Shown: positions 16,648 to 17,710 of the stretch, in pieces
How positions within the stretch are numbered: position 1 is the first letter of the stretch
Layout: each line of letters starts with the position of its first letter
Source: Actinomycetota bacterium
Lineage (GTDB): Bacteria; Actinomycetota; Actinomycetes; Propionibacteriales; Propionibacteriaceae
NCBI GenBank assembly: GCA_020161795.1
Contig: JAIUOR010000026.1
Location: 1-51,320, forward strand
Length of the DNA: 51,320 bases
Direction: 5' to 3'
Made by a program: the position numbers and the translations under genes
The notes under the pieces: generated by a model
Told to the model about the DNA's origin: nothing
Seen by the model: only the letters and a program-made list of their open reading frames with translations
The model's database searches: none

Positions 16648-16724
16648 CGGGAGGATTTGCACCGAACTTGCCCAGAACCTGGCGGAAACGGCCGCCAGCG
16701 CCGAACCCGGTGCAGATCCTCCCG
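16648..16724. repeat. Palindromic repeat family R3, copy A (77 bp)
   Basis: The left arm CGGGAGGATTTGCACCG (16648-16664) is complementary to CGGTGCAGATCCTCCCG (16708-16724) with one mismatch. The element lies 4 bp beyond the stop codon of the nuclease gene 16729-17619. Copy B, of identical 77-bp length, lies on the other side of that gene. Confidence 0.8.
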
Positions 16725-16728
16725 CCGG

Positions 16729-17619
16729 TCAGCGGGCCCGCAGTGCGCGCCGCACCGTGGCGACGATGTAGTCCGGGCGGTCGAGATGCTCCCAGCCGAA
16801 CCGGAGCGTTCGAAAACCCGCCGCTTCGAGCAGGTTCTGCCGCTCCCGGTCGCTGAGGAACTGGGCGGCGGCGGTGTGCGCGCTCCGACCGTCGAACTCC
16901 AGCACCAGCCGGACACCGCGGAACCGGATGTCCGGCTGGATCACGGCATCGCCGAGCCTGAGCGGCCGGTTGGCCACCCAGTTGGTGATGCCCGCTGCCA
17001 GCAGGATGCGGTGGAGCCGGAGCTCGGCATACGACCAGGGGCTGGTGGCGCAGGCGGCCACGACCGTGCGGCGCACGGTCTGTCCATCGCTCCCTCCCAT
17101 GGCGGAGAGCGCAAGCCGGAGGGCGTCGTAGCTGGCGAGCTTCAGGCGCAGGCACTCGCAGATGGCCCGGCCGTCGTCGGTCGAGGCCAGCTCCACGGCG
17201 GCGTAGCCGGGGCTCGCCACCCGAATGCCGCCGTGACGATGGATGAACTCCGGTGGAACGAGGTGCCGCGAGACCGTCACCCCGCGTCGTGGCCGCAACG
17301 AGGGGTGCGCGAGGTAGGTGGTTGCGACGACCCCGCCCGGTAGCCAGAACTCGGCCGCGGTGCGACCGTGCAGCACACCGAGTGGCGCCGACCAGGCCGA
17401 CACCGCCCGCAGCCAGCCGAGGCGGGAGTGATCCCCGGCCGGTAGATAGATGCCCGGAAGTGGGTTGGCAAGGGCGCCGGCCTGATACAACCTCCCCAAG
17501 GTTGAGCGGAGGCGCGGGTGATCGGCCGCCGCGATGACACCGCGGTCGGCGAGTTCGGCTGCTACTGACGCGTGCATGTCCCGGACTCTTGGCACCGGCA
17601 GCCGATCCGGGTCAGCCAT
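16729..17619 (-). CDS. Vsr-like/DUF559 endonuclease-fold protein with AbiEi-type N-terminus
   Basis: A 296-aa protein. The N-terminus (residues 1-60: ELADRGVIAAADHPRLRSTLGRL, then GIYLPAGDH) resembles the winged-helix AbiEi_4-type domain common in these actinobacterial proteins. The C-terminus is a PD-(D/E)XK, Vsr-like DUF559 domain with Asp230 in IQPDIRF, Glu241 and Asp243 in LVLEFDG, His248, and SDRERQNLLEAAGFRTLRF, so the catalytic set looks intact. Many such genes are orphans with no proven activity; DNA nicking is the usual guess. The ATG at 17619 is taken, with one at 17577 as alternative. Its stop is 4 bp from repeat R3 copy A, and copy B begins 15 bp before its start: the gene sits tightly bracketed. 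Confidence 0.8.
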   Translation of the reverse strand: MADPDRLPVPRVRDMHASVAAELADRGVIAAADHPRLRSTLGRLYQAGALANPLPGIYLPAGDHSRLGWLRAVSAWSAPLGVLHGRTAAEFWLPGGVVATTYLAHPSLRPRRGVTVSRHLVPPEFIHRHGGIRVASPGYAAVELASTDDGRAICECLRLKLASYDALRLALSAMGGSDGQTVRRTVVAACATSPWSYAELRLHRILLAAGITNWVANRPLRLGDAVIQPDIRFRGVRLVLEFDGRSAHTAAAQFLSDRERQNLLEAAGFRTLRFGWEHLDRPDYIVATVRRALRAR

Positions 17620-17633
17620 CCACAGGAGCCCGG

Positions 17634-17710
17634 CGGGAGGAATTGCACTGTGGATGACGCTCAGGCGGGGAAAACCGGCCGAAACGGGGAGTACGGCGCG
17701 AATCCTCCCG
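17634..17710. repeat. Palindromic repeat family R3, copy B (77 bp)
   Basis: The element starts CGGGAGGAATTGCAC and ends GCGCGAATCCTCCCG; arms match with about three mismatches in 16. It has the same 77-bp length and same outer sequence as copy A, and a shared core (GGCGG...AAACGGCCG-like) in the middle. It lies just upstream of the nuclease start codon, so the nuclease gene's own transcript or promoter must pass through it. Confidence 0.78.

Follow-up and report, generated by a model that had tools for sequence, protein, structure and literature searches.

Exploring a 51,320-nucleotide stretch of actinobacterial DNA (hereafter the window), we came upon a gene for a putative nuclease that is enclosed by two copies of a 77-bp palindrome, an arrangement that raises the question of which part moves, the gene together with its repeats or the repeats on their own, and what the enzyme has to do with them. 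The gene lies between genes for class II fructose-bisphosphate aldolase (fba; PF01116) and PurA (PF00709), both assigned by Pfam. One palindrome begins 4 bp past its stop codon and the other lies 14 bp ahead of its ATG (Table 1); judged by eye from their inner sequence, the two copies are mutually inverted. The outer-arm pattern CGGGAGGA-N(50-75)-TCCTCCCG matched twice in the 51-kb window and never in 100 shuffles. Long hairpins were predicted from both copies on either strand (z -4.4 to -7.1), with none of 200 shuffles equally stable, and the flank-pair score of the gene was not equalled in any of 60 shuffles. Coordinates, shuffles and folding confirm the tight bracketing of the gene reported in the preliminary description, and the shuffles rule out chance palindromes. 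A terminator or other RNA element was rejected, as the palindromes matched no Rfam family: searching positions 16000-18400 up to E=1 revealed no intron and a single sub-threshold miRNA match outside the palindromes, and a search of 20 loci at gathering score revealed no intron and tRNAs in one neighbour only.

Table 1. Coordinates of the nuclease gene, its parts and its palindromes in the window, and of the palindromes of a second nuclease-palindrome pair in the same genome.
Feature	Sequence	Coordinates	Strand	Remarks
Palindrome copy A, 77 bp	window	16648..16724	+	downstream of nuclease gene
Arms of copy A, ~17 bp	window	16648-16664 with 16708-16724		CGAACTTG side is the left arm
Nuclease gene, 296 aa	window	16729..17619	-	AbiEi-like N-terminal part and DUF559/Vsr-like C-terminal catalytic part
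Catalytic part, residues 196-296	window	16732..17034	-	E199, D230, E241, D243, H248
AbiEi-profile stretch, residues 39-182	window	17074..17505	-	E 0.0013, weak for the window protein; stronger in relatives
Palindrome copy B, 77 bp	window	17634..17710	-	upstream of nuclease start codon
GCAGAAACCGGGCA palindromes	L034	573-643, 1343-1414, 2376-2446		near gene
GCAGAAACCGGGCA palindrome	L104	10065-10135		elsewhere

The protein matched PF04480/DUF559 at its C-terminal end (E=6.5e-5). Among 22 homologues E199, D230, H248 and D257 are invariant, residue 241 is glutamate in all but one and residue 243 is aspartate or glutamate, which bears out the intact DUF559/Vsr-like catalytic set (D230, E241, D243, H248) that had been proposed. 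The best solved structure for the AlphaFold model (mean pLDDT 88.8) was the AbiEi antitoxin 6y8q (Foldseek E 5.3e-5, with a TM-score of just 0.30 by query), while the C-terminal part matched the catalytic domain of the homing endonuclease I-Bth0305I (3r3p; E 4e-3, TM-score 0.76 by target) and, more weakly, Vsr (1vsr; E 0.1). The AbiEi profile of PADLOC, at E 0.0013 for the window protein, reached 3.6e-12 for its relative L022, and another relative, L028, matched PF13338. Given that the fold matches and the AbiEi profile matches agree, we read the protein as a predicted AbiEi-like DNA-binding module joined to a nuclease of the Vsr/I-Bth0305I type. A plasmid search returned one weak match for the window protein and none for L022; the window protein had no match in a phage search, nor did alignment A3 against viral contigs.

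Homologues were present in 16 of 41 genomes, the window genome counted, and a second query found homologues in 74 of 147 genomes of the order. Those from named records belong to Propionicimonas, Propionibacteriaceae and other actinobacterial MAGs. Brackets were scored by a palindrome no more than 300 bp away on either side with matching arms, a score of 6 or less counting as bracketed; in the survey of the order at most 15 candidates per genome were scored. Eight of the first 26 genes had flanks that none of 60 shuffles equalled; the bracket at L033 (0 of 60) was judged spurious because this locus is half of a broken gene. The 148 genes of the survey were reduced to 133 distinct ones by dropping 11 same-place duplicates, two loci that belong to broken genes (L032 and L033), L120, which is a fragment, and L016, whose start is unsure. 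With each element used at most once, 74 of the 133 were bracketed versus none of 1330 shuffled flanks, and the paired elements differed in length by 2 bp or less in 69 of the 74. Sixty-six of the 91 genes of genus g2, which we take to be perhaps Kribbella and whose genomes are large (7.4-9.7 Mb), were bracketed; for the window's own type the figure is 4 of 22, and for the remaining genes 4 of 20. The window lineage is less regular: in L009, L008 and L010, judged by eye, either a single copy is in good shape and its partner worn, or all copies are worn. A looser scan that allowed up to four arm mismatches gave scores of 9 or less at 19 of 20 loci, the exception being L327. Mismatched upstream and downstream pairs, scored as a control, reached 6 or less in 497 of 5120 cases versus 67 of 128 for the true pairs; because genes share palindrome families, as this control reflects, the shuffles were chosen for the main figure. 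With a score of 10, the gene on the Tsukamurella plasmid falls outside the bracketed set. As to the 34 other ORFs of the window, one scored 6 and the remaining ones 10 or more; the former is spurious, lying antisense to purA and borrowing copy B.

These counts support the proposed pairing of nuclease and palindrome, a REP/RAYT-like layout in which the enzyme is of the PD-(D/E)XK type, and the pairing recurs in many genomes with differing palindromes. Related genes without the repeats, which the preliminary description had named as evidence against it, do occur in part, just those 4 of 22 window-type genes passing the strict test; the bias of the repeats to DUF559 genes is strong, so the repeats are not scattered without regard to such genes. 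In a separate observation, apparently frameshifted relatives of the nuclease (L011/L032 in G021 and L029/L033 in G011, the latter at fba-purA) match in two frames, a sign of gene decay in some lineages.

The palindromes range overall from about 56 to 103 bp (56-100 bp in the arm search), with arms of up to about 22 bp. Arm types in g2 are GACAGG-, CGGGTAG-, CACTCACCAA-, CATCACAAT-, GCAGAACCCC- and CAGCCAGGCAG-, and other arms were found outside g2. Mapped onto a tree of 73 nuclease proteins, built by a quick method, the six palindrome types required five changes, the minimum, compared with a mean of 40.2 in shuffles, none of 200 being equally low. The rows were bracketed genes typed by motif plus five CATCACAA and two CACTCA units included by hand; seven rows without a common type were excluded, as was L034, whose motif label, like that of L193, is doubtful. 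Palindrome type thus follows nuclease clade. Common descent alone would make a gene and the DNA beside it diverge together to some extent, and the dispersed copies described below are the weightier evidence. In 24 copies of the GACAGG type the 22-bp arms were paired in 95.8% of cells, and two-sided changes were found in 55 cells versus 17 in shuffles, a signal that sliding the partner abolished; two of the five arm-pairing measures, pair count and changed pair types, were not clearly above the shuffles (38 and 129 of 500 equally high). The count comprised 24 of 30 loci, five near-identical ones and a clipped one being excluded.

Solo palindromes, the search for which the preliminary description had suggested, were found in the window genome and in its relatives. 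The window genome (3.47 Mb in 67 contigs, about 96% complete) has at least four further copies, at C20:120450, C63:75981, C15:47768 and C15:158907, and the 3-14 kb loci around them gave no nuclease match; none of 40 stretches from the close relative G009 spans a solo-copy site of the window genome. Within the window's genus the GGGAGGAT pattern occurred in 3 of 30 genomes, namely the window genome, G011 and G017. These are home to the window gene and to L008 and L009, which at 60-61% identity are among its closest homologues; G014 and G021 carry homologues of similar identity without the exact GGGAGGAT pattern. In g2, 19 of 38 genomes carried the CATCACAA pattern, in up to 27 copies, and 14 of 38 carried the CACTCA pattern, with 68 copies altogether and up to 15 per genome, while the reversed control patterns of both scans gave no match in any of the 38 genomes. 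Nine of the 68 CACTCA copies lie within 200 bp of a nuclease gene and 59 elsewhere; three CACTCA pairs are less than 2 kb apart and each brackets a nuclease. The GACAGG type numbers at least 24 copies in G031, where 40 of 162 candidates were scored.

Copy number was compared with nuclease content using 92 nuclease loci from 36 genomes. Thirteen genomes have a nuclease beside a CATCACAA palindrome and each carries 9-27 CATCACAA copies, versus an average of 1.6 in the other 25 (Fisher p 1e-5). Copies of CATCACAA without such a nuclease among the at most 15 candidates scored per genome were seen in G071, G074, G085, G111, G117 and G138; of these, G085 and G111 do have a nuclease of the CACTCA type. 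For CACTCA, copies and nuclease also went together (10 of 14 against 4 of 24 genomes, p=0.0014), and we think that this link is weaker partly because the exact pattern misses variants. At one place, G091:C137 439-922, three CATCACAA palindromes stand in tandem with a period of 207 bp, comparable to the tandem REPIN clusters that a passage of PMC3116915 reports for Pseudomonas.

Do the palindromes move? Genome G034 carries a burst of nine copies, each about 103 bp long and nearly identical to the others. When 35 bases on each side are compared, similarity ends with the element in three copies, extends into both flanks in five and into one flank only in the remaining copy. One solo copy occupies the gap where two convergent genes end, and in nine relatives the alignments of the two flanks of this site are 0-8 bp apart, too near to hold the element (0 bp in G097 and G117; 2 in G102, G126 and G135; 5 in G079 and G120; 6 in G088; 8 in G105). 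Five of the nine, G079, G088, G102, G105 and G120, were also read as sequence; G120 has the element's initial ten bases. Other loci among the 29 read at this spot have unrelated spacers. By eye, the filler between the same convergent genes at L269, L270, L275 and L283 is unrelated and partly repetitive, and given such repetitive fillers in other genomes the spot seems to collect repeats. The nucleases of G034 and G129 (L176 and L326) are flanked by the CACAAA arm variant, as found in most burst copies of their own genome. Terminal inverted repeats and dispersed near-identical copies, a trait of insertion sequences and MITEs, are thus both present. No target-site duplication was seen by eye at the three copies with unique flanks or in comparison with the empty sites, where the flanks are too diverged for exact junctions, as they are between G025 and G031 at another solo site; an excision intermediate was not seen.

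The gene behaves differently. Bracketed units, 70 in number, fall into 14 neighbourhood groups, and in g2 all 13 CATCACAA-type and 14 of the 17 CACTCA-type units are found in one neighbourhood each. Four pairs of CACTCA and CATCACAA units have the downstream neighbourhood in common (82-84% over about 1 kb) and not the upstream one, with proteins that are 51-60% identical and palindromes that are unlike; at a given locus, a change of palindrome among related nucleases seems to have gone hand in hand with a change in the copies dispersed over the chromosome. Common loci with differing palindromes indicate that the enzyme gene behaves as a resident, as RAYT genes do. The fba-purA locus holds the gene in the window and in G017, and remnants of it in G011; in G014 it adjoins the aldolase gene, and in G002, G012 and G013 the gaps of 155-230 bp leave no room for it. 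In addition, an alignment of two genomes across the unit (L098 at 8975 versus L099 at 9585) stops just where the upstream palindrome ends on its outer side, with different DNA beyond it, as if a rearrangement had taken place at the palindrome edge. Given that the nuclease gene is mostly stationary, we concluded that the palindrome, and not the 1063-bp unit, is the piece that hops. The original proposal that gene plus repeats form the mobile piece is therefore not supported, the gene being mostly at shared loci, and the interpretation given in the preliminary description is upheld in part; nothing observed points to the role in genome defence that it also considered.

Together, the data suggest an enzyme-and-repeat partnership that spreads small DNA repeats, a REPtron-like duo with an unrelated enzyme. 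The window gene and its flanking palindromes are probably a home locus, consisting of a mostly stationary nuclease gene and of cognate palindromes that are recognised and spread through the genome. The AbiEi-like part would bind the palindrome arms, two proteins per palindrome, drawing the ends together; at copy B the bound protein would repress its own gene; the part of the Vsr/I-Bth0305I type would cleave one or both strands, either of the palindrome (in duplex or hairpin form) or of the target; and repair synthesis would leave a new palindrome copy elsewhere. The 23-bp size of the two inverted repeats that AbiEi binds, given in an excerpt of PMC7319586, is close to that of the 22-bp arms of the GACAGG type. 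We infer that arm binding, nicking or cutting, and copying are the work of the nuclease rather than of another enzyme.

Were another enzyme responsible, the palindromes would be MITE-like elements moved in trans by some other transposase and the nuclease a passenger caught between two copies. Their sharp ends, the near-identical dispersed copies and the empty sites fit this explanation. So does a case in G011, where two copies 1050 bp apart (L296 1501-2626) bracket an ORF that is not a nuclease and appears phosphotransferase-like by eye; this pair is what a chance insertion would be expected to give. Candidate movers exist as well, since five of the ten genomes searched (G011, G014, G015, G017 and G021) have one to three genes matching PF01797, the HuH Y1 transposase, and G011 and G017 carry both such genes and the GGGAGGAT palindrome. 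PF01797 had no match in the palindrome-bearing genomes G000 (the window genome), G025, G031, G034 and G037. A passenger, however, would hardly be expected beside clade-specific palindromes congruent with the nuclease tree, nor would copy number be expected to track its presence, and we consider this explanation unlikely.

Alternatively, the palindromes may be operators, the AbiEi-like protein regulating itself and a regulon while its nuclease part has another job, e.g. mismatch repair. The short distance of copy B from the start codon would suit an operator; an excerpt of PMC7319586 has AbiEi repressors binding two 23-bp inverted repeats in their own promoter, and in Caulobacter a Vsr-like mode of action is ascribed to a DUF559 protein (PMC12907096). 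Against this, the second copy sits behind the gene, the G034 copy that we examined lies between the 3' ends of convergent genes, and the solo copies of G034 are near-identical over ~103 bp at differing places, including the loop, which operators would not need to conserve; such a role for the palindromes is improbable. That the nuclease restrains the palindromes by cutting hairpins or cruciforms, or serves as an addiction or defence device, is very unlikely, for although its partner sequence forms hairpins, its fold is that of a nuclease and AbiEi profiles from a defence library match it, palindrome copies are more and not fewer where the cognate nuclease is present and the window gene is flanked by genes for aldolase and PurA and by no toxin gene.

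How does a stationary nuclease with cognate, spreading palindromes compare with known systems? REP-type palindromes are common in bacterial genomes, REPs being palindromes of 20-50 nt after a conserved tetranucleotide, mostly GTAG. In passages of PMC8266576 and PMC3116915, a REPtron is a RAYT gene adjoined by its own palindromes with many dispersed copies, RAYT genes giving no evidence of their own movement and enzyme and palindrome co-evolving. An enzyme gene adjoined by cognate palindromes, with others dispersed, is likewise what we find. Unlike the HuH tyrosine transposase of REPtrons, however, the enzyme here is an AbiEi-Vsr-type fusion. The window palindromes are single and 77 bp long (about 56-103 bp in relatives) and have no general GTAG tag, GTAG occurring in the arms of some copies only and being absent from the outer arms of the window copies; and our counts reached tens of copies at most, whereas REPs number hundreds. 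The system thus works like a REPtron yet lacks the defining features, the HuH enzyme and GTAG-tagged palindromes of 20-50 nt. TIRtrons (TIRYT) and CGTC REPs, as treated in the relevant part of PMC3733652, resemble it in having terminal repeats or palindromes around a gene and orphan palindrome families, but TIRtrons encode tyrosine transposases and not a PD-(D/E)XK-type nuclease. In the literature reviewed, the enzymes tied to REP-type palindromes are HuH tyrosine transposases, and PMC3733652 mentions families with no known mover. AbiE shares the AbiEi fold and profile of the N-terminal part and, next to its gene, has inverted repeats of similar size (about 22-23 bp); here, in contrast, a nuclease part is added and the repeats are on both sides and dispersed, and no AbiEii (DUF1814) toxin gene adjoins the gene in the window. 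I-Bth0305I and Vsr resemble the modelled catalytic domain in fold, but the present gene is palindrome-linked and carries an AbiEi-like module and, unlike I-Bth0305I, is a free-standing ORF between two genes and not within an intron or intein.

In open-licence PMC papers, which the search covered, we found no description of such a nuclease-palindrome system, and of those mentioning DUF559 none, by title and start of abstract, deals with dispersed palindromes linked to a gene of this family. The RepRanger survey of REP sequences (PMC12306157) does not contain the words nuclease, RAYT, transposase or Kribbella. We judge the system to be new, as far as open-licence papers go, because the defining features of REPtrons are lacking, the likeness to AbiE and homing enzymes is partial and our search found no description of it. 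Taking protein and palindromes together, we lean on balance towards a separate class of system, a palindrome-binding AbiEi-like module with a Vsr/I-Bth0305I-type nuclease, domesticated as a transposase of short palindromes and independent in origin of the HuH REP transposases. On this view the palindromes are particular to each nuclease clade, several pairs live side by side in a genome and the palindrome was switched at one locus along with the chromosomal copies. If true, a second, unrelated enzyme would have the same genetic layout and this lifestyle would have arisen twice; a group of DUF559/AbiEi proteins would obtain its first function, and orphan palindromes in actinobacteria a possible explanation. 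Cognate and non-cognate pairs within one genus provide built-in controls for binding and cutting.

Further repeats were noted in the same genome. Its contig C20 holds a second, unrelated nuclease-palindrome pair, of the GCAGAAACCGGGCA family (Table 1). In the window itself, a second palindrome family, GTGCRCTAATTGCCA ... TGGCAATTAGCGCAC, is found at 24856-24939 and 29577-29651, in opposite orientation and 4.6 kb apart; its build is like that of the nuclease-bracketing palindromes, and no cognate nuclease was found for it. A third family, CGAGGGCCAGCCTT ... GGCCCTCG, of about 75 bp, is found at 1651-1726 and 31764-31838, 30 kb apart, and contains inner GGCCAGCC repeats.
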